Of a stretch of DNA of 64,000 bases, positions 655-53,044 are shown in pieces (the stretch's first letter is position 1; the number at the start of each line of letters is the position of its first letter). The position numbers and the translations under genes are program-made. The notes beneath the pieces were generated by a model, which saw only the letters and a list, made by a program, of their open reading frames with translations, had not been told where the DNA came from and did no database searches. Source of the stretch: Bolinopsis microptera (Eukaryota > Ctenophora > Tentaculata > Lobata > Bolinopsidae); assembly GCF_026151205.1 (NCBI RefSeq), contig NC_087076.1, forward strand, positions 17,209,919-17,273,918. The letters are read 5' to 3'.

Positions 655-988
655 AATCGGGGTTTTCTGAAATTATACCTAGCTTGTTGTAGATCTAATT
701 GGGTTTTTCTGAAATTATACCTAGCTCGGTGTAGATCTAATTGGGTTTTTCTGAAATTATACCTAGCTTGTTGTAGATCTAATTGGGTTTTTCTGAAATT
801 ATACCTAGCTTGTTGTAGATCTAATCGGGTTTTTCTGAAATTATACCTAGCTCGGTGTAGATCTAATTGGGTTTTTCTGAAATTATACCTAGCTTGTTGT
901 AGATCTAATTGGGTTTTTCTGAAATTATACCTAGCTTGTTGTAGATCTAATTGGGTTTTTCTGAAATTATATATATTATATTATATCT
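655..988. repeat. 42-bp minisatellite, left array
   Basis: About seven and a half copies of a 42-bp unit containing GAAATTATACCTAGCTTGTT and GTAGATCTAATTGGG. Units alternate between a GCTTGTTG and a GCTCGGTG form, a sign of expansion by blocks. The array stops where the retrotransposon begins and resumes at 4078. Confidence 0.9.
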
Positions 989-989
989 A

Positions 990-3900
990 GCTTTACTCAT
1001 ACCCCGGACCCCCAGAATAGTCGGAAATTCAGAGTAAATGGGGGTGGTGTCCTTATTGCCATAAAACATTGTCTTGACATAGAATCTAAAATCATTCCTG
1101 TCAAATGTAGAGCCGAGATTTTGAGTATTGAGCTTTCTGACAAGTTAGGAAGAAAATCCATATTAAGCTCGTTCTACAGAGTTGGCACACTTGGCAATGA
1201 TAACCATGATAGAGTCAAGCAATACCTACATAACATCCGTAGGCGTAGAAGAGTACAGAGCATTACCTTGGCTGGTGATTTGAATATGCCCCAGGTCAGA
1301 TGGGATGAGGGCTCCTCCTCTGTTCCTATTGAACAAGCATTCATTGATACGTTTAATGATTTATCTTTACAGCAGCTGGTAACAGACCCTACACATTACA
1401 GGGGAAATGTTCTAGATGTAGTTTTGACGGATAAGCCAGAAATTATATCAGAATTAATTGTTGACAGTAAACATGGTATTTGTGGGTCGGATCACTATGC
1501 GATAAGATTTGACATAAGACTTAACGCTAATTGGACCAATTTAAATAATGCACTGAATTCTGAAAACTGGGAACATCTACTTAGTGGTAAACCAGTCGAA
1601 GAGGCCTGGTCAGTTTTCAATACTATTTTCACTTCTCATTGTAATTCACATATTCCTAAGATATCTGTCTCCGATGAATTTCAACCCCCATGGTTTGACT
1701 CAGATGTCTTTGATTTATGTAGAAAAAAGGAGCGACTACATGACGAATGGAAACAGTCTTCTAATCCAAAAAAATATTTAAAATTTTCCAAAGCTAGGAG
1801 GGATTTTAAAAATCTCGTTGATGCAAAATTGGACGCAAACTTTGAAGATGATGATAACAGAAATCTCATTAACAAAAAGTTCTGGTCTTTTGTGAAATCT
1901 AAATCAAACTCTAATCGCATTCCTGAAACAGTCAGCTACAATGGTTGCCTACGGTCCGATCCGCAAGGACAGTGTGAGTTATTCAATAAATATTTTAACG
2001 AACAGTTTACAGAGGGTAGTGATTATGATATAGATATCGACTTTTCCAGTGACCGTGATTTTCAGGTCAATTTCGACACTTGTAAAATCAAAGGTTTACT
2101 TGAAAATATTGATCCAAGTAAAGCGCAAGGGGCCGACAATATCCATGGAAGAATTTTAAAGTACTGTTCAGTGAGCCTGTCTAAGCCTCTTGCTATCCTT
2201 TTTGAAGCTTCTTATAAAACTGGATGTATTCCAGCAGATTGGAAAATGGCAAACGTTGTTCCAGTTCATAAAAAAGGCTCTAAAATTGAAGTTAACAACT
2301 ATAGGCCAATTTCTCTGACAAGCATTATTATGAAAGTTTACGAAAAAGTAATCCGGGATGAATTGCTCAATCGATGTGAACATCTTATTGATCAACGTCA
2401 ACATGGTTTTATGAGTAGGAAATCATGTACAACTCAGCTAGTAAATTTCTGTGACAGCTTAGCCCTATCTCTCAATGACAATGTTCGCACTGACATAATA
2501 TACTTTGATTTCCAAAAAGCTTTTGATTCTGTCAACCACGACATAATTCTGTTGAAGCTCAAAGAACAATATAACATTGATGCATCTCTACTGAGATTCT
2601 TCAAGTGCTACCTTGAAAACAGATACCAAAGGGTTGTCATTGGAAATAAAATGTCTGCTCCCTGTCAGGTTAGATCAGGTGTCCCCCAGGGCTCAATTTT
2701 AGGGCCTACTTTATTTATACTTTTTCTTAATGACATTACAGAGGATTTGTCACCGGAAACAAATATAACCATGTATGCTGATGATACAAAAATATGGCGT
2801 AGAATCACGTCCCAGGATGACCATTGGCTGCTCCAGCGGGATATTAACAGTCTTCAAAATTGGGCTCATCATAATAAGATGGTGTTTCACCCTTCAAAAA
2901 GTCACGTTCTTTCTATTACCCGAGCATATTCTATGAATCGTAGTGTTAATTTTGTGTACTCAATGAATGAAACGGCTATCGAATACACAGACATTGAAAA
3001 AGATCTTGGAGTACATATCAATAGTAAGTTAGATTGGTCACATCACTGTGATATGATATACTCTAAGGCTAGTCAGAGGTTAGGCCTTCTAAAAAGAACA
3101 TGTTACTTCACCAAGAACACTAAAAAACGTCGGGCCTTCTATCTATCTCAGGTTAGAAGTCATTTCGAACACTGCACAATTGTCTGGCGGCCTCATTCAG
3201 AAACCTCGGTGGAGAAACTTGAATCGATACAAAAAAGAGGTATCAAGTGGATCCTTAATGATATTTACTTGAGCCTTAGGGACAAAAAAAGGTATTTCAT
3301 AGCGTGTAAGGAACTAAATATCCTTCCACTCTCGGTAAGGTTTGATTACAAGGATATATTATATTTTCATAATATTTTTTATGACATGTCAGTTGTGACA
3401 TTTCCACCTTACTTACGACGTTTCATGGGAAGTAGGTTAAGGCGATCACATCTAGACGATCTCAGTATGATTAGTGACATTTCTCCTCAAGTTCCACAAA
3501 ACCTTACGTCAAGCCAGACCAGATGTTCAGGCATATCTAAGTCTTACTTTTACAGAGCACACATTCTTTGGAATAAACTCCATTATGAATTAAGGGAAAT
3601 CTCAAGGCCATCCGTGTTTAAAACCCATTTAATTAAGTACCTCTGGACAGTTCTAAACGACCATATAACATCCTCTGACAGTTAAACAATTTACCTTAAT
3701 GTAACTATATTGTCTAAATATAAATTGATATGAAGCATAATTAATAAAATATGTTAAATAAAGTGTGTTTATAATTATGATTTATGGTACATTGTTATTT
3801 ATTATATTTATATTTTAGGCTGTAACCTTATTAGTTCAATGGAATAAACCTAGTATGCCTTGGTTGCAGCATCGCTTCACTTATAGGTGCATTTAGGGCC

Positions 3901-13700: not shown

Positions 13701-16700
13701 TACGATCTTTTTGCCTTCGGCAAGAGCAGGGAAAAAAATTATATAAGCTTAATCAGAATATATTATGTACACGGTAAGCAGAAATATGAAGACCATTGAA
13801 ATTTAAAAACATTTGAAAGCCAGTTTTAAATTTTTATAGTTTGCTCTAAAAATAACCTGTAATTGAAACCGTAATTAATTAACATGTAAGTGTAATTGAT
13901 ATTAACCTGTAATTGATACCGTTAACCTGTTAATGTAATTAACCTGTAATTGATACCGTAGGATATCTCCTCCATCATAGCATCACAAGGAGTAGCCTCG
14001 GGATGGAAACTAGAATATACTGATATTACAACCAGTTGTTGGGAACACTCCGAGATGACACGATCAAACTCCATATCTGTAATCTGGGGCATCACTCTCC
14101 AGTCACACTTACCTGTTAAAAGAGGGTCGGTGTTAAGTTAGGGAATCTACAGTTAGCAGCAGGATCTATCAATTAGATGTTAATCAATACAGAATATTCA
14201 ATAGGTCAGCGTAAAATAAGGAACGCCAGCAGTTGAAATAAATGTTGATAAGAAATAGAAAGATGAAATTATGAGCACTATCAGGAAGAAATCAACCTAC
14301 ACATCATTTCCTCGTTGGTAGCCAGGTAGATCCTCATTGCTAGAGGGCATGTCAGCGTGAGCCTCTTCCTCGGAGACTTAATCCTGCTGCACGCTGAAGA
14401 ACCTCTCGTCTTCCAACTCTTCTTCTTTGGATCTTTTCTCTCAGGAAAGACCAGGAAGGGTGAACTGTTCAAATTGATCGTGACACAGGTCTTCTTCTTG
14501 CAGCCTCCTGATATGGTCTTGAAACCAGCTGGCAGCTTGAGGAGAGTTGCTTCAGAATCAGTGGCTCCTTTGGAAGCTTTAGAAGCAGCAGACAAGGCCC
14601 TGCTGTTCCTTGAACTTGCTCTTCCTAGAGAAAGCTCTTGTCTGAAATTCAGCAGAAACTCGTCCACAGTCTTTACGATTTTCTTAGATGTATTGATGAG
14701 ATATCTATCAGTGGGATCAGCTATGGAATGTTTGTGAGGATACAACAATTCCTCGGTCTCCGAATCGTCTGTAACACGTGTTGAGCTGATTCGTTTCTGC
14801 CTGAGTCGTCTTCTGTTCCTTGTTTTAGGAGCGTTCAGGATGGTCTGAGCAGTCACTGATCTGAACGCAACACTTGACATTAACACAGGAGACTGTACTG
14901 TGTCCTCTATCGGAACTTTGACGGTTTTAACGTTGATAAACACGCACTCGTCAGACAGTTGGAGGTGCAGGTAAACCTCTCCAGTTGAGGTGAAGAACAA
15001 GGTTAGAAAATCGTTAATTGTCAACAAGAAGTCTTCAGTGTCAACACTGTTCCAAGACCATGATTTACAAGGAACTCCTTCTTCGTTGTAGACACATCCA
15101 CCTAAGATAGTGGAGAGGAATGCAGGAGTTTTCTGATTATACCAACAACTGCCTACACCAGAGGGATTGAAGGAAGCTACGATAAATTCCGCTTGGAGAT
15201 GGTGAAAGATGTTGATCGTTCTGGTGAAATCTTGCTCTTTTGGAAGAGGAAAGTTTGACAGGACGCAACAAACACTCCCATTAGGATAGTAAAGCGTGGT
15301 GCTCCCGTCAGGAAATGCGAACAGCAACTGAGAGGTCATGTCTTGTGGAACCTCAGTTACAAAACCAACTTTGTGTCTCCCCGACCAGCTGAACGGTCTC
15401 CTACTCTTATACGGATCACTCTCAAACTCAGAATAATATTTTAGGAGTGACGGATACTTCTCCTGGTTATCTTTCTTAACCTCAGCGGTCTTGTTCATCT
15501 TGCACTTCTGAAGCCGTTCCAGCAGATACTTCACCAGTGATCTGTCTTTAGCTCGCCGTCTCCTTGGTTTATAATCCAGCCTTTAGCAGCACAGTTCTGG
15601 TTGATGAGAGAGAAGTTAATAGTTGTGTTGTGTGGTTGTATTTCATACAAATTTTCCATTTCTTTTCGTCTCATCCCGGACTTTTCTTTACCCATACGGC
15701 TGCCAGCATCAGACTGCTGGTTGTTTTCTAGATACAGATCCTCGATAATATCACTCTGATCAGATAACATGTTCCTTCGCCGCGCTGACTCTCTCCGCGC
15801 GCTCTTTATCCCCCCGTAAATAGTTCCCTCGTTTGAGCGACTGCTGGTTCCACCGTCGGTCTCCCCTCCGGAGAACAATGTCTTTTGCCGCCTACTGTAC
15901 ATGTGTTGTTAGTTTTTATTTGTTATTGATACGACATGGTACTATATCATGACGCGTTTTAGATGATAAAACTAGAGGGACCACTAGGCTGAATCGTTTA
16001 ACGTTTACGTCATTATTTTCTGTCATATCATACGAATCAGGAATAAGGATAATATTATGATTATGATCTTTATGTTTAAATCAATAAATTCGATTTATCA
16101 TATTATGATGAGTTCTAAGCATTAAGCAGGTTATAATACTAATGAAAGTTCAGTGACAGCTTCATTAATAACGATTATTTACCCCAATTTGTCAATTCTA
16201 CACCGGAAATTCACACCAATCAGAGCCAATTACAGCAAATACCTAGTCAGACGCACATAATTACCATTTGTAACACAAAGTCACGTTAAAAAATGATAGC
16301 AAGCCAACAAGCACGCTGTCTTAAATCTGCATATTTCAGACTGACATGCATTGCAACAACACCACTACACACTACTGTACACCACACTTAACAAACGTAT
16401 TACAAACTCAACATTACCGAGATTTTCCGCTTCTTGAGCCATCGAAGGACTGAGTCAGTTCCGAGACTTGGGAGTTGAGTTTGCCGGTGGTTGCGTCCCG
16501 GGCGTTTTGGGGCGGTGAACCGCGCTGCCACTCTCGGTACTCGACCTCCGTGTCGGCGGTGAGTTTGTAGAAGTTGGAGAGGAACACCTCACGTGATTCA
16601 CTAGGGATCATGTCAGGGGAGATGGCATAGTTCTCCTTGGACAGGAACTCTAGAGTTCTAGTTAGATCCTCAAATAGATCACCTAAGGTTTTACATGCTT

Positions 16701-25832: not shown

Positions 25833-28800
25833 TCAATTGAACATGAGGCTGTAATCTAAATTTCCCTTGTACAGCTTGTCCTTGACAATCTGCAGCTGAG
25901 TATCATTTAAGAACTTCCCACTGAACACACTACCGTCATCCTTCGGTATGTTTTCTTCTTCCTTGTAGTTGAGCCTGCAAAATATTAATGCTAAGAAATT
26001 AAATACAACATGTGTAAGGAGATCGGACTCAATGTTCAACAAGTTGGTGTACCTTATGGGTCCTAATTCGGACGGACAAAATTATAGATGACTGTAATTT
26101 TGGATTCTTGTTACAGCTTTCTTTTTCCCTCATATTAAATAATAAACTTTGAGTTTATAAATGCAATTGTGTCCCAACTCTGACAGCTTTGCCGTGAGTT
26201 ACACAAAACTTAAACGACAAAGATATTTACAATCCATTTATGGTGAATTTGATTCGCTTTAATATTGGAAGCAGAGGGCTCACAACCGCATACCGATAAA
26301 GTATGCCAATATATCATTACAAGGTATGTAGTTCTTAATATGAAACTAATCGAATAAGGATTATAACTTGTTCCTTTCTAGAAACGTCGATAAATTCTCA
26401 ATATACTGAACTAGTAGTAGGAATGAGCCATTAAATTGTTTTGACGTGTAATATAAATTAAACTAATCAGATTGAGCATCGGCCAATAAAATACCTATTC
26501 TTTGTCACGGGCTGCAACAAACTTACATTATCTTCCCCGCAAATATTCAACTCTATTTGTACCAAAACTTTTCGGGGCTCTCACCTGACAGATTCCAGGA
26601 CACATAGTTTAGCCTGTTGACGGTAGTTTTCAATGCTATCCTGAACTGAGGCTGCTGCTGCAGAGTTAGTGGCGTCAAATGTGTTTACAGAGAAGAAACA
26701 TCTCTTTGCGTATCGTAGCAAGTGCCTGAAGGAATAGATAATGAGAATTTAATTGAGCACTTTGGAGACAATTTCTCTGTGCATTATTTGAAAGTTTACA
26801 AACTGCCTTGCATTTAAAACAAGGCAGCTTTTGGATAAATACATGAGTCAAAATTTGTAATTTATAAAGAAGTGCCGTTGCTAGAAAAAAAAACTTTATT
26901 TGGTAATGAACCATCTTTCAGACTAACCATATTCTGTCTTTTCTGGGGGTCCAGGTAGGAAAAGCTTTGGTAAGATTGAGCTCCCCATGCTCGTTGATTT
27001 GAGGATGAAACACTGGTGTTATGAAGTTTACAGATGGCCTACTGTACGGGAAATCGTCTGGTATATTGAGGTTGAACTTGAAACATCCCTCTGCGAACAT
27101 ACCGATCTTTATGAAGATCACACCGTTCCAGACCTGGATAGATCGCAGAGACGGAACAACATATACACCAGACGACACGTTATTGCAGAGAAGCTTGTAC
27201 TCCGCTAAGATCTCGTGGTCTCGGAAAAACGGCCTCAACTCCGACTCACTTTCACTGAGAGCTTCCTTGAGAGGCGCTTTTTGTGGCCTGTTTCTGATCA
27301 CCATTGTGTTGGCACGCTTGAATCTGTTGATCTGAGGTGGTGAAGCCGGGGAGTCGTCATCCTTAGTGAGATCCTCCACTGACTTAGCACCGAATATCTG
27401 CTCCAGAATCTCGTCTCTTTCACTGTCACTAACATCAAGTTCATCGTCCGTGTGACCAGTTGTCCCACCCAGGGGACTGTCTGTGTCCCTTTTAGGATCC
27501 TCACAGACACAACTTTTAGAACAGTTGTCGCATGTTTTGTCGGAGGTTTTGTCACACTGGCTCTTCTCGGTTCGTTTTATTGTCTTGTGGTGTCTGATCA
27601 ATGATCCGCCCGATTGGGCCGTTCTGTTGTCGATGGCTTTAGCTTTGCTTTCTTTGTTGCGAGAAAGAAAAGATCTGGGAGACCCTGACCCCGACTTAGG
27701 AGATCCCGAACCCTGGAACTGATCGAACTTGGAGAGGGTGTACGCCGATCTAGCAACAGACTCTCTTTGGATCTGGAGAATGTCTGATAAGGCTCCGACG
27801 AAGATATGGATCCCTGATTTTTGGGAGAGCCCACACTCCCGTTATTCGCTGACAATCTCTCCTTGCTCCCAGATAATCTCTCTTTGCTATCGATCTGATA
27901 GGGCTCTTTGTAAAACTTTGTGTCCGCTATCGAGGGTCTCACTTTCTTTAACTTCTCTTTATAAGAACTGAACAGTTTCTTTATCGGACTCTCTTTCTCC
28001 GGTTTGGTCTCTTCAGGAACTTCAGGCTCAATGTACGGCTTGTAAAGTGGCACATACTCCGGGTGTTCCTTAAGGTAGGTTTCACGAACAGACTTGTGTA
28101 CCGGATCCAGGAAGTAGGACAGGTAGGTTATCATGCTTAGCTCGTCCACCTCGTCGCTGGTAAAAGACATGTTTCAGAGACAAGAAAAATATTGTTCGAG
28201 AAAAACAAAAACTTAAGTTTTCTGCGCGTGAAAATTCTGTTTCACTCTATGAACTTGTGCAAGAGTCTAAGAAACGAAGCAGCGAAGCAAACGAAGATAA
28301 TATGCAATGATAGGTGGAGCGTGGGATTAGGAAGCATCTACAGTCTGCTTTAAAGATGACGTTATTGTTGCTATATAATGTGGAATATTACTCGTGATGT
28401 GTGTGTGTGAAGAACTGTAACAATAAACCAGATAAGGACATATTTTAAAACATCAAAGGAAAGTGCAATTTATCCCAAGACTGAATGTTTCAGACGGTGG
28501 TGTGCTTGTTAATCGTCGTACATATGACACATACCTTACTGGTTTTACATTTGTCCTTTGAAATTGTGGTTTAATGACACAGTGAAATGAGAGGCTACAA
28601 AACAGGGGTGTAGGAATACCCCTGCTACACAAAATATTTTACAAATAGAGCTGTCAATTTAGGCAACTTTTAATGTCGAGATTAATGCTTTTCCAATGTC
28701 CAACAGTTAAATTGGGAATGTGAAAATACACAGCAATGTTTAATGAGTATGTACCTAGTAAAATCCTCTGCTGACAGTAATCTAGGTATGTTCAGATGAG

Positions 28801-31800
28801 CCTGAGCTGCTGTCATAGCGTCGTCCGTAGCGCTTATGTAGTCGCCTCTCTCTGTAATATATTCAGTTACCAGTGAAACGGGCAAAGTAATTAATAACCT
28901 GCCAAAAATCACTTGATAAGCCTCCTCGGTGTACGGTGTAAAATTATGCAGATAAGAGATTTATGAACTTGTAAGTGATCTGGAGTTAAAGTGACCATAT
29001 CTTAGCACATCACAAGGACCTAATTTAGCGGGATTTAGTACATGTCAACAAATATCACCGACTTGATCCATTAATAAATGGAGCAAGTCACCACAATTCT
29101 CTCTCTAGTACTAAATATAGCGACTTTATCACAATAGTTCTAAAGTCATCCCGTCACCCACCTATATTCATGAAGTCTCTGTTAAAAGCTGGAGCCAGAT
29201 AGGTCACCAGGGCGGTCAGTGCCATGCCATCTCTCCAATCATCTCTGATGTTATTGACACGTAACTTCACTTTGTCTGAAATTTCACATGTTATCCTTAC
29301 TATTATTTAACTCCTGGAATACAACGCGAAAAAAACCCACTAATAGTGCGTTGAGTAGCTGCAGAGAGTAGCCGAGGCTGGCTTATAAGGTCAAACGTGT
29401 GATAACCCCTGTCAACGGTCGCAAAGAATTCAGACTATTGGGGTGCAAATATAAATACTATATATTTTATTTCAGAGTACATTTAACGTGGAATACTCTG
29501 GAATATTCTCTTTGTTGCAGGTAAACACAGCTCTAATTCTGGACACTTTATTCCACAGTACGCGAGTAAGATGGTAAATTAAAGACTGTACATATTTAGT
29601 AAATAGTTTAGTAACTTTCAGATAGAACGAACCTAGAACTTTGTTGAGTCCTCTGATAAGGTTGTTTTTGAGACCAGGTCCGCCACTGCCTCCAACTCTC
29701 TTATCGCAGATCTGAGGTGACAAATACCGTGAATATTTGTTCTCATGCTATGAATCAAATATAGAAATATTCACTCAATTTGATTAATTATGCACAGTGT
29801 CAGAAATGGATATCATAGCAATGCGGTAGTATAGTGATGCAGTTCTACTACAACATGGGTGTACACTTTGGATTGAGACTTTTCACCAATAGTTGCCAGA
29901 GTAGAATAATAGGCACAATTCACGTACTCTAGTTCGACACGCACTATAGTTCGACAACTTAAGTTTAGTTCGCCAGATATCACCCCTGTCGATTGATATT
30001 AATATTAGGACGCAATGAAACTACCGGACCACGATGTATGGGGACTTACCACCCCATGGCAACATTAATATAGCGTACTCACTACTCTACAATATAGATC
30101 TACAAAACGGAGTACGAGTTACCACGATAGTTTTTTATCTCTCCGCTAAGTCTACAATTCTGTTTCAACTAACAATTGAGCCTGAGGTCAATAATTTATT
30201 TTATTGAATAAAATGTTCATAGATATAGATTAAAGAGTTCGGACTTCGGTAAATTTTAGACCTCATTGGATACAGCAGAAGAAATGTGAGAATTCAAAAT
30301 GTACTCTAGTTCGATAGTCGAAGTTTTCTTGTCGAACTTTACTACGTGTCGACCTTGAGTCCAGGTAGCGCACTTAAGTTCGACAGAGTCGAACCTTAGG
30401 GTCTGTCGAACTACATTGCGTGTCGAACTTAAGTACGTGTACCAATAGGCACTACGCTGAAAGGTAATAGCTGCAGATGCAAGAGCGACTTACATGGGAC
30501 CGGTGTTCAGTTTGGTAATGGTACGAGCATTCCTTGCGATTGAATCAAATGAAATTTTTATTGAATAACAATTATCGGGCTATCGATCAATCTCTAAATA
30601 TATAGTCTCCGAGGTACTTCACAGGATAAGTGTGAAAACTGAACCAGACTTACACTGGTAAGATGATATCTTTGGATGAGACACCAGACAAGGCCTAGGA
30701 TAAGTTTCAGGGAACCCCCAGCAATGTCCTGAGCCCCAATATTCGTCAACTTCACGTCCTCGCTGTAAACAAAAACGTTTTTTGATATTTTATCATATTG
30801 ATTATCCTGTGTACTGTTGAATAATAAATGAGACTCGTCAAGCCGAGTGTGGACAGTGGGATAAACCTTAAAAATCCAAAAACCCGACTTGCGCTCCGTA
30901 GTTAAGGGCGGGGTCATGAGATAAATATAAAAATTTGGTTGCTCGAGCTGCAATTGCAATGTTGAATAAAGTCCTGTAAAGTGGCGTGAGTGACAGGTGA
31001 CAAGATATTCACCGTCACTTAGTGACAGGTTACTTAGTACCTTACACACCCTCCCTCTCAAATCATAGACTCAGATACAATGCTAAGAAGCTTGTAGGCC
31101 AAGTTCAAAGCTAGTAAAAGTTACATTTTATGTGCATTTAAATGTGTGTCAGCTGAAGGGTGTAGGCTGTTGAAAAGTCGTATCATCAAACCGTCACGTG
31201 ACAATCATGTGACCATCACGTGACACAGGATGAGTGAGTATGTGGTCAACACATAGTACTGACTATTAATAGAGTGACAGATTGAGATACGGTTAAAATT
31301 ACTATTAGAGCGTCACACCAACAATAACGATCACGCACAGTGATAATATTATTAATAATCTTGTTAAATGTGTTCTGTAACGTACAATTGCAGATTATCA
31401 CACAATTGCAGATTATCACACAATATACACAATCACACACTGATAACACACTTTGTACGTTACCTGGAACAGATGTCGAGAGCGAGCTGGACGTTGTCAC
31501 ACCTCTGTGTAATAGATTGCGGGAACATGTGATACCGTTTGACAGACTTGCCCGCAAGCACCTCCATCAGCCGGAGGAATATCGTACCATCGATAAAGTC
31601 CACTTTGAAGTTCTCGATCTTCGAACCTTGACAAATGAAAACATATAAGGGTTGCCATGACCACGAATCTTTGGAATTTGTCCAAATTTGAGCAGGGTTT
31701 ACTGAACCATTTAGTCCTGTGTCCACTATACGGGTGGCAAACCAAACCTTTTCATTTAAAATCAACCAGCAAACAATAGAATTTGAAACATCTAACATCA

Positions 31801-32056
31801 GATGTAAACAAAATAGTCTACTACTACTACTAGTAACTACTAGCTAGTAACCTTTAGTAACTTTTAGTAACAACCTATAAATAAAGTGTACAGTGAGTTT
31901 AGTACCTGTATGTTGGGAGACCCACTTAGCAAATGTCCTATGCTGGATCTGTACCCATTTCATCTCAGTTTTCCTGATTGTACTGATACCCCGCTGTCCG
32001 GAGATGTTCCTCTTCCGTCTCCACGTTTCAAGCTGATCCCGGGTCCGTGGATCCAT
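25833..32056 (-). CDS. Tandem calponin-homology domains fused to an FTS/AKTIP-type UEV
   Basis: Exons: 31906-32056, 31464-31626, 30654-30762, 29633-29711, 29162-29275, 28755-28851, a long exon 26928-28156, then 26585-26725 and 25833-25974. The first six plus the start of the long exon encode a filamin-type actin-binding pair. CH1 shows KWVQIQHRTFAKWVSQ, FIDGTIFLRLMEVL and LKLILGLVWCLI; CH2 shows IRDDWRDGMALTALV, LNIPRLLSAEDF and VDELSMITYLSYF. After a Ser/Lys-rich linker with a cysteine cluster, the rest is a UEV domain very close to AKTIP (FTS): GVYVVPSLRS, GVIFIKIGMFAEGCFKF, VFHPQINEHGELNL, HLLRYAKRCFF. The catalytic Cys position is Asn. The two halves are in different frames; removing 27773-27834 (62 nt, GT..AG) joins them into about 720 aa. 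The UEV frame has no ATG before the UEV domain itself. Fusion is strongly suggested but unproven. Confidence 0.8.
27598..28156 (-). CDS. Alternative CH-only end of the long exon
   Basis: Read without removing 27773-27834, the CH frame continues through a Ser-rich stretch (SISSRVRDLLSRGQG) to a TGA at 27598-27600, giving a short CH1-CH2 protein without UEV. This could be an intron-retention isoform or simply the unspliced read-through. Confidence 0.4.
29917..30443. mobile_element. Inverted-repeat element with 9-bp target duplication (MULE-like)
   Basis: 527 bp in an intron of the CH-UEV gene. The ends are inverted repeats around CACGTACTCTAGTTCGACACGC, and an exact AATAGGCAC duplication flanks it (29908-29916 and 30444-30452). 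A 9-bp duplication points to Mutator-like elements. Internal sequence is rich in GTTCGAC motifs. It holds the short repeat shared with 11205-11277. Confidence 0.75.
30004..30076. repeat. Short dispersed repeat shared with 11205-11277
   Basis: About 70 bp nearly identical to 11205-11277 (GACGCAATGAAACTACCGG, CGATGTATGGGGACTTACCA). Confidence 0.75.
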
Positions 32057-45905: not shown

Positions 45906-46814
45906 TTACATAAACTTTTTTATCCATTTCTTTAGAACACCATTGGAACTTAAACAAATAAATACAATAACTAACCCATATAGCAAAACAAACCCATAAC
46001 ATCTGATAAAAACTAAAAGTCTACTTTCTGCTTTAAGACTTGACGGAATCCTTTGTTTTGAAGAGTAGATAAGAACATGAGTAACTGCGACATGGTCATT
46101 GTTTTTCACAACGTAATAGTTATGAGGCAGCGGATTATTATTAAAACTGATGCCAGAAAGTTTTTCTTTACCTTGCTTTACTTGATCACTATTAATAACT
46201 TTACACATCAGGACACACGTCATGTTCCGACATATTCGAGAACTTGGCCATGATTTTCCCTGTTTAGCAAAAGATAAAGCAACATCTATGTCACTGCTAA
46301 GATACGTTCCTGAACCATAAAGAGCTCTTGTATTGAGATGTCCAACCAAACCATTCTGCAAGATACTGAAGACATTTTCAGTATGCGTCCCATGAAATCC
46401 AATCAAATTCCCATGGGTTTCTGTTAAGTCTTCAAATTTTGAAGACATTCTAGGATTTTTCAATTTTACTATAAACTGTGGAGATTGCTTTACATTTGAT
46501 AACCCACTGAAGTCAAGAAAAAATTTCTTATCAAAAGGTTTCACTTCAAGCTTTTCAGCTAACAAGGTTATCCAGTCAATAAAATTGAGGCTTTCAGCAG
46601 AGTTAACCATTGAACGAATGGGAGGGAAACGAATTTGATCATGACAATTTACCAGCTGTTCAACGGATGCCACAAAATTTGGTAAAGGCTTCAACAATGA
46701 TTCCCCTTTAAATGATTTTAAGGATGCAAACAATATGGATAGAATAAAATCGATGGCATAATCATGGTCTTTATCTTTGGTAGCTTGAGGGTTAGATGAA
46801 GATGGTTGCTGCAT
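45906..46814 (-). CDS. PARP16: PARP16, ER tail-anchored mono-ADP-ribosyltransferase
   Basis: Mono-ADP-ribosyltransferase of the ER membrane, linked in vertebrates to the unfolded protein response. One uninterrupted exon gives about 302 aa (human about 322). The N-terminal helical region (ILSILFASLKSFKGESLLKP) precedes the catalytic domain: IGFHGTHTENVFSILQNGL holds the first His of the H-Y-[Y/hydrophobic] triad, ALYGSGTYLSSDIDVALSFA the Tyr, and YYVVKNNDHVAVTHVLIYS closes the fold. A hydrophobic segment near the C-terminus (YGFVLLYGLVIVFICL) fits the tail anchor. The ATG at 46812-46814 is 33 nt inside an acceptor-like TTTTATTTTATCAG, suggesting a spliced 5' leader. The lack of introns differs from the vertebrate gene. 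Confidence 0.93.
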   Translation of the reverse strand: MQQPSSSNPQATKDKDHDYAIDFILSILFASLKSFKGESLLKPLPNFVASVEQLVNCHDQIRFPPIRSMVNSAESLNFIDWITLLAEKLEVKPFDKKFFLDFSGLSNVKQSPQFIVKLKNPRMSSKFEDLTETHGNLIGFHGTHTENVFSILQNGLVGHLNTRALYGSGTYLSSDIDVALSFAKQGKSWPSSRICRNMTCVLMCKVINSDQVKQGKEKLSGISFNNNPLPHNYYVVKNNDHVAVTHVLIYSSKQRIPSSLKAESRLLVFIRCYGFVLLYGLVIVFICLSSNGVLKKWIKKFM

Positions 46815-46848
46815 GGAACACTGGCACCGAGTTTTAAACCATACCTGA

Positions 46849-47450
46849 TAAAATAAAAGTTCTAACAATGTAGTTGCTTATGTTTAAAATACAAACAGGG
46901 TATAATGTCCTTATTTTACTCTCTGATAAGAGATGCAAAAATTTAGATAATCATGAATTATTAATTGTTGTAATAGCATTGTTCTAATTCTTCTATACAT
47001 TTATCACCTAAATACTAAAAAATAATCATTTTCCTTAAAAGTTCCAGCTATTTAAAAATTTGACCTTTTTTTTTTGAAACATGTTGTTGACAGTTGATGG
47101 TCAAATATGGATGATCAAACTGAATTGACTAGCATTGATACCAAATTGGCAAAGGCACATATCTAAATCTAGTAAGTTTAAAAGTTTTGATAAATCCAGC
47201 TGCAGAAAGGGTTACAAGGAAGTGAATCATAATTTATTTCCATTAGAATCTGTCTTCACTGAGTCTATTCAGAAACAATCAGAAATTTGAATAAAAGAAC
47301 TATCAAATCATGAGACTCAAAAACACTACACGAATCCACCAGAAGTGAATCATGTTAATCTTGAAATTGACCATTTCTCCTATCCTTGACCTTAATAATG
47401 AATCAATAACATCTAAATAACTCTTCAATCTAACTACCAGTATAAATATT
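46849..47450. other. Gene-free stretch upstream of PARP16
   Basis: AT-rich, no supported exon or recognisable repeat. It is expected to hold the 5' leader and promoter of PARP16. Confidence 0.45.
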
Positions 47451-48345: not shown

Positions 48346-49439
48346 TCATGAGATATTTATTCCCTTTCTCTTGGCAACACACGGGTTTTTATATAGATAT
48401 TGAACTTGTTGCTTCTTCTTTTCGATATAATTTACACCCTCTATTTTTGCTAAAACTATATTTGACACTTCCCAAAAGTTGCCTGTGTCTACTAAATTAT
48501 TAGTCTTTCTAAATTCTTCTAGATTAATTTTAAAATCAATAACAGACACTGAATTTCTAACAAATGATCGTAATTTATTCCAAAAGCTGATAACAAGCTC
48601 TGATAAAAAATTATTAGACAAGGTTTTAATATTTCTATCAATATTGTTAGATTTAGTGCTAACAATTTTATCTCCCGATCTACTTAAATTGAAAATGTCT
48701 TTTCCATACTCAACCAATCCATTTACAATTTTGTAGGCTTCAATCAAATCTCCTCTAACCCGTCTCTCTGCGAGTGTTGTAATCTGTAAGGCATCCAACC
48801 TTTCACTGTAAGGAAGTGTTCCAATATCATCAATAAGGCGTGTGAACCTTCTCTGGACATTTTCCAGTTCAATGATAGTAGCCCAATTCCCATGGCAGGC
48901 AGGTGGAGACCACAACTGAGCACAATACTCCAAGTGGGGTCTTATTATAGTTTTATAAACATTTCTCATAACGTTAATTTCTCTTATAATGAGATTCCTT
49001 GTAACCCATGCAATCATACTGTTTGCTTTACTGATACAACTTTTAATATGTTTCGACCATTTCAAATCTGAAGAAGTTAAAACTCCAAGATCTTTCTCTG
49101 CTTCAATACATTCAAGTGTAACACCACTAAATACATATTCTTGAAGGGGATTTTCATTAAATGGAACATGCATTATTTTGCATTTGCTAGGATTAAACTT
49201 TAACAGCCACACATTTTGCCAGTTTTGCAAGCTTTCTAACATATTGAAAGTGCTTTCAGTGTCATTGGCATCCATAATAACTTTAAGATCATCTGCAAAC
49301 AGTTTAGATATACCATTAATACAATCAGGCAAGTCATTGATAAAAATGACAAACAATAAAGGACCCAAAACAGACCCTTGTGGGACGCCTGATAAAACAT
49401 CACGAAGGTAGGAATATGCTCCACCAACGAATGTCTTAA
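48346..49439 (-). pseudogene. Non-LTR reverse transcriptase, 3' part (split by insertion)
   Basis: The minus-strand frame starts just after the TTAA insertion point with TFVGGAYSYLRDVLSGVPQG, then has SVLGPLLFVIFINDLP and the catalytic FADDLK. It runs to the C-terminus and TGA or TAA near 48346. It is continuous in frame with the part at 51965-53044 if the intervening element is excluded. The element's 3' untranslated part reaches about 48240. Confidence 0.88.
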
Positions 49440-51964
49440 AGGATGAGGGGACCTTAGAAAAAGTTTTTTTCTCGTGCAAATCCTTTTATTACATTACGGG
49501 TATTTGCCTCACAGAATGGCCAAAAAAAAGGAAGGTCTCTCAAAGTCACAAAACACACTTTATTCCAGTTTTTATCTCATAAGAAGCTAAGTTGACACTC
49601 ATATTTTTCTTCCCGGGGGTTCATTTAATCTCATAACCATTTTTTCTTTGAGAAAAATTGGCCGGAAAATCTTCCTCCAAAAAAACATGCCTCACAGAAT
49701 GGCCAAATCTGAATTTCTATAATTTTGTTGATGGAGATACTTTTTAAATTTCTATCACCACACGTTCTTAGAAAGCCTATTAAGGAATGAGGTAATAACC
49801 TAAAACTCACGAAAAAACTGAGCTGTGAAAAATTATTTCACAAAAAAGAAAAAATGCCTGACAAAATGGCAAAAAAAAAAGAAAACGAGAAAATTTTATT
49901 TTTCTAAAACCTTTGGCTCTTGTTTCAGGCATGCTGCTGGTATTAATATGCCTTGTTAACACCCCCATATAGGTGAAATTTCTTAGAACTGAATAAAAAG
50001 GGCATAATTTCCTACACCAAAAATGGCCATTTTGTGTGGCGTTGTTCATATTCCCTGATTTCATGATTTATAACCTTCATTCGGCTGTAAAAACACTCCA
50101 TCTGGGGTGTTATTGTATGATAAATAGCTTGTGAATACTTTAGACTTATGGTTTCATTGAATAAAAGGAGTTTTAAATTTTGGCCATTTTGTGAGGCATA
50201 TTTTGGCCATTTTGTGAGGCGTTTAGCCATTTTAACATTTTGTTTCTTCCTAAATTGAACAATGTTCGTTTTGTTTGATGAATACTATTCTTTAAACATC
50301 TTCTGTCATACTGGTGCCAGAAGTTCTCACCAAAATGCAAACTTAGTTCAAAAATTTGAAAACAAATTTTGTGAGGCATATTTTGGCCATTTTGTGAGGC
50401 GTGTAGCCATTTTAGCATTTTTTTCTTCCTATATTGAACAATGTTCGTTTTGTTTGATGAATACTATTCTTTGAACATCTTCTGTCATACTGGTGCCAGA
50501 AGTTCTCACCAAAATGTAAACTTAGTTCAAAAATTTGAAAACAAATTTTTCAGTGCTCAAAATTTCTACATAAACAGTCATATTTATGCCAGAAAATGTG
50601 GTCCTAGTTAATGATTTCACCACAGGAAGTGTTGCCAGAAGACTTTTGTTTCATATGGTATCCACAAAACCTACCAGTATTTTATAAAAAATTAGTTACA
50701 AAAACATTTACAAATTTGGCCATTCTGTGAGGCTAGCCATTCTGTGAGGCATTTACCCGTAATCGTATAAACCACTTTAGTGAAATCCGCAAAGTTGTAT
50801 TTCATTCGCGCGCCGAGATATCCAGCCAAAACAATTTGAACCTGTGACGTCAATTATGTGAGTTGCTCTGATCCGCGCATATAGAAATACAGGTAAAATG
50901 AGCATGCGGGCCGACTAAATTACTAATTAAGAATAAATTAACAATTTATGATACTAACGAGCCTTTAACCAATGGAGAGGAGACTTTTTATGACCGGTTG
51001 AAAAAAGAATTATCACCCTACGATAACCATGAGCCGAGATACACCTGGAATAAGATTGAAGTCACACAGAAAGGCATGTAAATTATGTATATTTATAGCT
51101 CCCAACGTAACACCTAGCAACTCCCTGTTTCGTACCACAGTTGATATATCAACATGTCATATCAACACAACACGGTCCTAATAAAAATGGATCGGGTAGG
51201 TATGAAATGCATGTCTTCATTCCAGTTGGACAAGCACCAAGCACCAAGCTTTTAAGTTCTAACTCACTATGTGACACTACTTATAACGTAAGCAAGATTT
51301 GCAACTATTACACCAAGCAATATTATACCAAGCATAGCAGACGAACACATCCACATTCGTTACGCTTTACACTCAAGTCACAGCAAACTAAAACGGTAAA
51401 TTATAAATGAGTGTACAACTAAAGGCCGGTCGCACTCAGATAGGACTAGAGGCGCCAAGGGCCAGCTAGTAAAATGTCTTCTACTACATCATACATTCTT
51501 TTTAATTGTGTCCATATCGGGTTTCAAACAAGTCAAAACAAAATAGCAGTTTGTGGTTTAGTTAGCGGATGCTACTTATCTTTGCTATTTATAAATAGAA
51601 ATACCTACTACAACTACAAGAAAGCCTTTCTGAGTTACATTTAACTATTATTATTAAAGAGAATTATTCGTAACTTAGACTAATTCAGTGCAACCAAAGA
51701 TACCGCTCTCGCAAACGCCAAAGGTAACACGACGTAATTAAAACAGAACAGAACAAAATGTTGACACGAGCAAAGGGTGCGCGCGCACGTTGGTCTTAAC
51801 ACATAAGTGACGTCACAGCCCAAAATTGCTATCAGCCAATAGGAGCGCTGAGTGATATTGCACGAATTATCGATTTCACAGTACGGCGTATTTTTTGATT
51901 CTACACACTTTCACAGGACTTAAACGCGAATATTTGGAAGTAAATTCTAAGGTCCCCTCATCCT
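49440..51964. mobile_element. TTAA-flanked inverted-repeat element inserted in a reverse transcriptase
   Basis: 2,525 bp with inverted ends AGGATGAGGGGACCTTAGAA, flanked by TTAA at 49436-49439 and 51965-51968. The TTAA lies in codons for Phe-Lys of the interrupted reverse transcriptase frame, and one copy of it keeps that frame open. Inside are scattered copies of GCCTCACAGAATGGCC and its variants and a near-duplicate of about 200 bp (50160-50360 versus 50360-50550). No transposase is seen. Most likely a non-autonomous piggyBac-type element. Confidence 0.88.
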
Positions 51965-53044
51965 TTAAATCTTCTTCCAGATAAAAAGTCTTTCACAATA
52001 TCTAAAGTGTTACCACTTATACCCAAATTTCTCATTTTTGTAAGTAGTCTATGATGTGGAACACTATCAAATGCTTTACAAAAATCTAAGTAAAACACAT
52101 CTACGGGTGCACCATCCTCTAACAGTTCGATGATACATTCTACACTCTCTAATAGATTAGATAAACAAGATTTACCTTCTACAAATCCATGCTGGTTTGG
52201 ATTTATCTTCTTACTAACAAAACTCATAATATGCCTCCTTACTAATTTTTCATATAATTTACATAAAATGCATGTAAGTGACACTGGCCTGTAATTTAGG
52301 GCATCTTTCCGACTACCCTTTTTATAAAGAGATGTAACATTTGCTGTCTTCCACTGTTCTGGAATTTTTCCACTCGAAGCACATGTTTGAAATAATTTAG
52401 TCACAGCAGAAACAAAACTTGAATTATGTTCAAGTTCTTTTAATAATTTAGGATGAATGCCATCTGGCCCTTTACTTTTACTAATATTAATTCTTTTCAG
52501 TTCTCTGCCAACATCATCCATTGTTATCTCAATATTTTCAATGTTTAACTCATCCGCAATAAAATAACATTCTCTGTTCAAAGGTCCATCTGGTTCTTTG
52601 ACAAAAACTGAAGCAAAAGCATCAGCCAATACTTCGGCAGTTTCAAAATTACTTTTGGTCAAAGATCCGTCCGGTTTTTCCAGGGATGATACACAACTTT
52701 TTAACACTCTTTTCCCTCTTAAATATGCATAAAATGGCTTCGTATTATATTTCATACACTGTGTAATTTTTCTTTCATAATTAACTTTACATTTAAATGA
52801 CTTACTATCAAACTGTCCTTGTTGGTTCAGTGCAACATTAAGATTTTCAGAAGAAGGATTATTATCAAAAATATACCAACATTTATCTGTATTTTTCCTG
52901 CATCTTTTTAAGGATGAGTTTGCCCAAGGCTCACATTTAAAGTTCTTTTCCGTCGGAACTATATCAGATACTAAGTTAAGCTTTGAGTGTAACTCACTCC
53001 ACATATCTTCAGAAGTTAAAGGAAGAGGTTTCAGAAGAGTGAGC
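51965..53044 (-). pseudogene. Non-LTR reverse transcriptase, 5' part (split by insertion)
   Basis: The minus-strand frame covers the pre-reverse-transcriptase linker and first motifs: SKSKGPDGIHPKLLKEL, LNYRPVSLTCILCKLYEK and VFYLDFCKAFDSVPHHRLL, ending FLSGRRF at the insertion. The endonuclease part is absent, so the copy is 5'-truncated near 53044. Confidence 0.88.

Follow-up and report, generated by a model that had tools for sequence, protein, structure and literature searches.

Within a microtubule-motor adaptor, FTS (AKTIP) is known as a small subunit that stays constant, and it normally helps dynein carry endosomes. To our knowledge, the FTS proteins known so far are separate polypeptides, and EHBP1, to which the locus described here may be compared in function, has only one CH domain and lacks a UEV domain. 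EHBP1 is described as an adaptor between endosomes and actin whose partners are Rab8 and EHD (PMC7442826). In the human FHF complex, FTS sits against the final coiled coil of HOOK3, the belt helix lies on the opposite side, and Hook is built of a HOOK_N head, coiled coils, and a C-terminal FTS site (PMC11996680).

The locus studied here lies in a 64,000-nt stretch of DNA from Bolinopsis microptera (the window; G000:C5:17209919-17273918). It shares with FTS the UEV domain and the missing catalytic cysteine, but here the UEV follows a tandem CH module; this module it shares with filamin, although without filamin repeats. With Hook it would have in common a CH-type fold and a link to FTS. We regard the locus as a candidate fusion, that is, one ctenophore gene encoding a tandem CH module, a linker, and an FTS-type UEV, with a probability of about 0.68, and we consider it quite probable that a fused CH-UEV protein is made. 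A limited search of the open-access literature returned no description of CH domains and an FTS/AKTIP-type UEV in one protein, and as far as that literature shows, CH-UEV is probably a new architecture of the FTS family.

Gene organization and the CH module

Nine exons with GT-AG junctions were found on the minus strand, exons 1 to 7 carrying the tandem CH and exons 7 to 9 the UEV, with introns of 202 to 942 bases between them (Table 1). An earlier note on this DNA had proposed a single minus-strand chain encoding CH domains and then an AKTIP-type UEV; the domains, their order, and the GT-AG junctions stand, whereas the reading frame is not continuous. Apart from this single frame break, the UEV exons contain no further stop and no damaged splice site. 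The predicted protein would have about 740 residues (the sum of the exon lengths), comprising the tandem CH, a disordered-looking linker of some 290 residues between CH2 and the UEV, the UEV itself, and a C-terminal tail. In a search of the 264.65-Mb genome (232 contigs), the DNA of exon 7 matched one place over its whole length, this locus, and the UEV-side linker likewise matched only here. The CH-UEV gene is single-copy in this assembly. Rfam at gathering thresholds gave 0 matches within the 64-kb window.

Table 1 Coordinates of the exons, the elements around the frame change, and other features of the window
Feature	Position in window	Strand	Remarks
Exon 1	31906..32056	-	ATG 32056; CH1 start; GT donor, translation
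Exon 2	31464..31626	-	CH1; GT-AG
Exon 3	30654..30762	-	CH1 end; GT-AG
Exon 4	29633..29711	-	CH1-CH2 linker and CH2 start; GT-AG
Exon 5	29162..29275	-	CH2; GT-AG
Exon 6	28755..28851	-	CH2; GT-AG
Exon 7	26928..28156	-	1229 bases; CH2 end, linker, and roughly the initial two thirds of the UEV; holds the frame change
Exon 8	26585..26725	-	UEV C-terminal part; GT-AG
Exon 9	25833..25974	-	C-terminal tail and stop
Likely CH-to-UEV frame change	27700..27790	-	Codon model, residue composition
CH-frame stop codon	27598..27600	-	
AATAAA that may serve a CH-only transcript as poly(A) signal	27576..27581	-	Just past the CH-frame stop
UEV-side linker	27305..27601	-	Coding in the UEV frame, upstream of the sole UEV-frame ATG
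Sole in-frame ATG before the UEV	27302..27304	-	
Reverse-transcriptase (RVT_1) ORF with endonuclease domain	965-3682	+	Non-LTR-like
FAM194-domain ORF	14284-15582	-	
PARP catalytic domain	45909-46877	-	Sub-threshold ARTD15 (PARP16)-like N-terminus
RVT_1 ORF	48349-49485	-	Non-LTR-like element
RVT_1 ORF	51961-53043	-	Non-LTR-like element

CH1 (1.1e-16) and CH2 (2.3e-11) both match Pfam PF00307, stand one after the other, and both match actin-binding domains, as in a tandem-CH module. The best nine of 58 PDB matches are filamins, led by filamin-B and -A, and an alpha-actinin comes next; the alignment with filamin-B has 74 identities in 222 residues. By sequence, the module is a filamin-type candidate actin-binding domain. 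Its relatives elsewhere in the genome are weaker, with 29 to 47% identity. A genome search with PF00630, which weak matches may escape, found no filamin repeats following the CH module near the locus; among the 79 matches listed, the sole one on C5 lies at 19.55 Mb, 2.3 Mb away. No HOOK_N match falls in the gene, and the related NuMA hook model matches CH1 below threshold only. Elsewhere in the genome, CH and filamin-repeat matches co-occur, for example at 14.55 Mb of C8, and one open frame of 3190 codons (L015, 331-9900) contains four Pfam CH matches.

The UEV domain and a separate FTS gene

The best PDB match of the UEV is human AKTIP (8qat_D) with an E-value of 1.2e-29, the next reaching 1.5e-14, and the two share 54 of 140 aligned residues. 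Profile searches gave 2.8e-36 for AKTIP against 2.6e-13 for active E2s. In the alignment, the catalytic cysteine is replaced by asparagine, GELNL standing where UBE2A reads GSICL. Judged on these comparisons, the UEV is nearer to AKTIP/FTS than to active E2s. The C-terminal tail is partly similar to the FTS copy described below, and the belt helix was not matched in 8qat. A search with the tail alone returned weak, repeat-inflated matches to ubiquitin, which we took as chance. An AF2 model of the UEV built from a two-row alignment had a mean pLDDT of 33 and was discarded, so that the helix in it carries no weight.

The earlier note had suggested looking for a separate AKTIP-type gene in this genome, and one is indeed present: contig C7 carries an intronless FTS of 214 codons (about 1852546-1853190), with a stop eight codons upstream of its ATG. 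A fusion would therefore be an extra FTS paralogue. The C7 protein and the UEV agree at 77% over 145 residues. When the gap and the last residues are excluded, the same residue is encoded at 133 of 188 aligned codons, and the differences at codon positions 1, 2, and 3 number 47, 27, and 128, respectively; dN is 0.22 (NG86), and dS is not computable. On these substitution patterns, the pair is an old duplication in which both copies are constrained, and the UEV is under purifying selection.

The frame change within exon 7

The UEV frame is open from 27841 to 26921 and differs from the CH frame, which runs into its own stop; a jump of -1 or +2 is thus needed to connect the two. The region was scored with a codon model for which nine long ORFs of this genome (10,486 codons) served as the training set; since the retrotransposon ORFs in the window score about 0, the model misses some real ORFs. 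In sliding windows, the CH frame is positive from the start of exon 7 until the stop enters the window, and the UEV frame is positive from centres at about 27780 onward. The best single switch falls at 27789-27754 (116.2 to 115.6 bits), with 112.1 bits at 27714, while residue composition places it at about 27713 (a split set by eye). At this same split, the two halves of the linker (43 and 38 residues) have disorder-promoting fractions of 0.70 and 0.79 in the frames used, against 0.56 and 0.55 when the same DNA is read in the other frame. Between 27713 and 27601, the CH frame scores 6.5 bits and the UEV frame 11.2 bits, so that the final stretch of the CH frame cannot clearly be called non-coding.

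A strong signal comes from the UEV-side linker. At 27601-27305, the UEV frame scores 37.6 bits over 99 codons, which is more than any of the 505 off-frame blocks (the highest has 31.1) or of the 1161 blocks from the window; true coding blocks have a mean of 24.5 bits (sd 17.7, lowest 1.5, n = 101). The impression in the earlier note that the linker looks coding is thereby borne out. In addition, the frame from 27841 to 27305 stays open in only three of 20,000 mononucleotide shuffles. The note had also stated that no ATG lies upstream of the UEV, which proved incorrect: an in-frame ATG at 27304 sits 21 codons ahead of 27241, the first residue shared with the C7 paralogue. The strongly coding sequence upstream of this ATG nevertheless argues against a free UEV gene beginning there.

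The AATAAA begins 17 bases past the CH-frame stop, where the chance of one is about 2% per 20-base stretch (1.06 per kb), and a scan of the roughly 630 bases between the UEV stop and 25200 found neither AATAAA nor ATTAAA. As a candidate explanation of the jump, programmed -1 frameshifting was rejected: 27841-27598 holds no heptamer of the form X XXY YYZ under either strict or relaxed rules.

We suggest that the two halves would be translated together and that the frame change would most likely be a one-base indel of the assembly or of the allele, or else an unannotated intron. The published Bolinopsis microptera assembly was built with wtdbg and then polished with Pilon (PMC10232365), which makes leftover indels plausible. 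A second haplotype copy, sought to settle the question of an indel, was not found in the assembly. Of five iGluR loci examined among 32 matches listed, two likewise change frame inside continuous homology that leaves no space for an intron (L012 near 941-943; L011 between 1076 and 1216); these breaks could be assembly indels or real decay. An iGluR of this genome has the ligand-binding domain of Mnemiopsis ML032222a as its best match, followed by 4zdm, a receptor from Pleurobrachia, and the best locus agrees with the Mnemiopsis fragment at only 80%, which points to a ctenophore that is probably not Mnemiopsis.

Alternative explanations

Fusion is favoured because exon 7 is shared by both halves, the linker is coding upstream of the sole UEV-frame ATG, and the UEV is under purifying selection. 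Against a simple fusion count the frames that are unjoined in the assembly, the mild coding signal that the CH frame keeps up to its stop, the AATAAA beyond that stop together with the lack of such a signal in the roughly 630 bases scanned after the UEV stop, and the wide spread of leader trans-splicing. The preference for fusion over two genes expressed in the earlier note is thus kept with a reservation, as the shared exon, coding linker, and selection on the UEV speak for it and the unjoined assembled frames and AATAAA do not. Because the first alternative below is itself one form of fusion, our confidences are not mutually exclusive and should not be added up to 1.

The alternative that survives best, although we think it rather unlikely, is that exon 7 is alternatively spliced, so that the CH-UEV fusion would arise when an intron is removed, and a CH-only protein with its end at 27598 when that intron is retained. 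With an intron such as 27942-27713 (AAA/GTGAGA...TTCCAG/GGT), the frame change would be a switch rather than an error. There are 826 joins (GT-AG or GC-AG, 20 bases or longer) that keep the frame open, several of them, including 27942-27713, of fair consensus; moreover, the AATAAA lies past the CH stop, up to which some coding signal persists in the CH frame. However, the DNA of the putative intron scores as coding in the CH frame (16.5 bits for 27942-27713), and the best intron model reaches 113.1 bits, below the 116.2 bits of a bare switch, in a comparison where introns earn no score by construction. This best-scoring intron is only 35 bases long, far from the range of the other introns of the gene.

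More doubtful is the possibility that the locus gives two products, a CH-only protein whose transcript uses the proximal AATAAA, and a free FTS-like protein with its start at the ATG at 27304, reached by way of a spliced leader or an internal promoter. This ATG is in frame, a good acceptor (CACCACCTCAG/ATC, 27332) lies shortly before it, and the C7 FTS begins 15 codons ahead of its first shared residue, compared with the 21 codons here. Leader trans-splicing is common in ctenophores, with spliced leaders on 56% of Iso-Seq reads in Hormiphora (PMC8527503), and as many ctenophore mRNAs are processed in this way, the UEV could have an mRNA of its own. A CH-only transcript would also fit the AATAAA that follows the CH stop. 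Nevertheless, the UEV frame holds about 100 strongly coding codons upstream of the ATG and is open to 27841, for which a 5' leader is an inadequate explanation.

It is very unlikely that a real frameshift, of recent date and present in the animal or population that was sequenced, has disrupted a former fusion gene: the frame break itself and the iGluR breaks, if these are real decay, would agree with it, whereas the UEV exons are otherwise intact in their stops and splice sites and under strong purifying selection. An assembly chimera joining unrelated loci within exon 7, conceivable as a single assembly was seen, is hardly credible, given that coding signal runs through both halves and exon 7 matches one place over its full length, although this match, being within the same assembly, shows only that neither half also lies elsewhere.

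Proposed function of the probable fused protein

If the fusion is real, the putative CH1-CH2 module may grip F-actin while the UEV takes the seat of FTS on the C-terminal coil of Hook, and Hook itself or FHF-bound endosomes would thereby be tethered to actin, the long linker acting as a flexible spacer between the two ends. We hold this tether between actin and FHF, conditional on the fusion and drawn from sequence comparison, at a little below even odds. Its functional parallel would be EHBP1. Alternatively, the fused copy might compete as a decoy with the free C7 FTS. It seems improbable that the gene encodes a permanently actin-wired FTS paralogue, an FHF variant that would pass dynein/Hook cargo straight to actin, in which a frame-changing splice in exon 7 decides whether the CH-only protein or the complete tether is made. 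The earlier note had offered the CH-like head of Hook as a parallel, which does not hold: FTS contacts the C-terminal coiled coil of Hook (PMC11996680), and since the Hook head is absent from the contacts described, its CH fold gives no reason for a link between CH and FTS.

Should the proposed tether prove true, a second FTS placed on an actin-binding module would physically connect dynein cargo to actin. It would also mean that a conserved adaptor was rewired by gene fusion in a lineage argued to be sister to all other animals, and it would offer an explanation, open to testing, of why two FTS genes are kept.

The likely partners of such a protein are encoded in the same genome. On C4, a single strand carries the HOOK matches and both of the genome's two HOOK_N matches, and FHIP-type matches are found on C9. 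The exon with the most C-terminal Hook match on C4 contains EERMVLSAWYE. Human Hooks bind FTS through an EEKxxxSAWYN motif (PMC11996680), and by sequence the C4 peptide appears to be a close form of this FTS-binding motif. Also on C4, a tandem repeat translating as TYSGTRTQVHVLR adjoins the coiled-coil coding sequence of the Hook region (L018, below about 1390).
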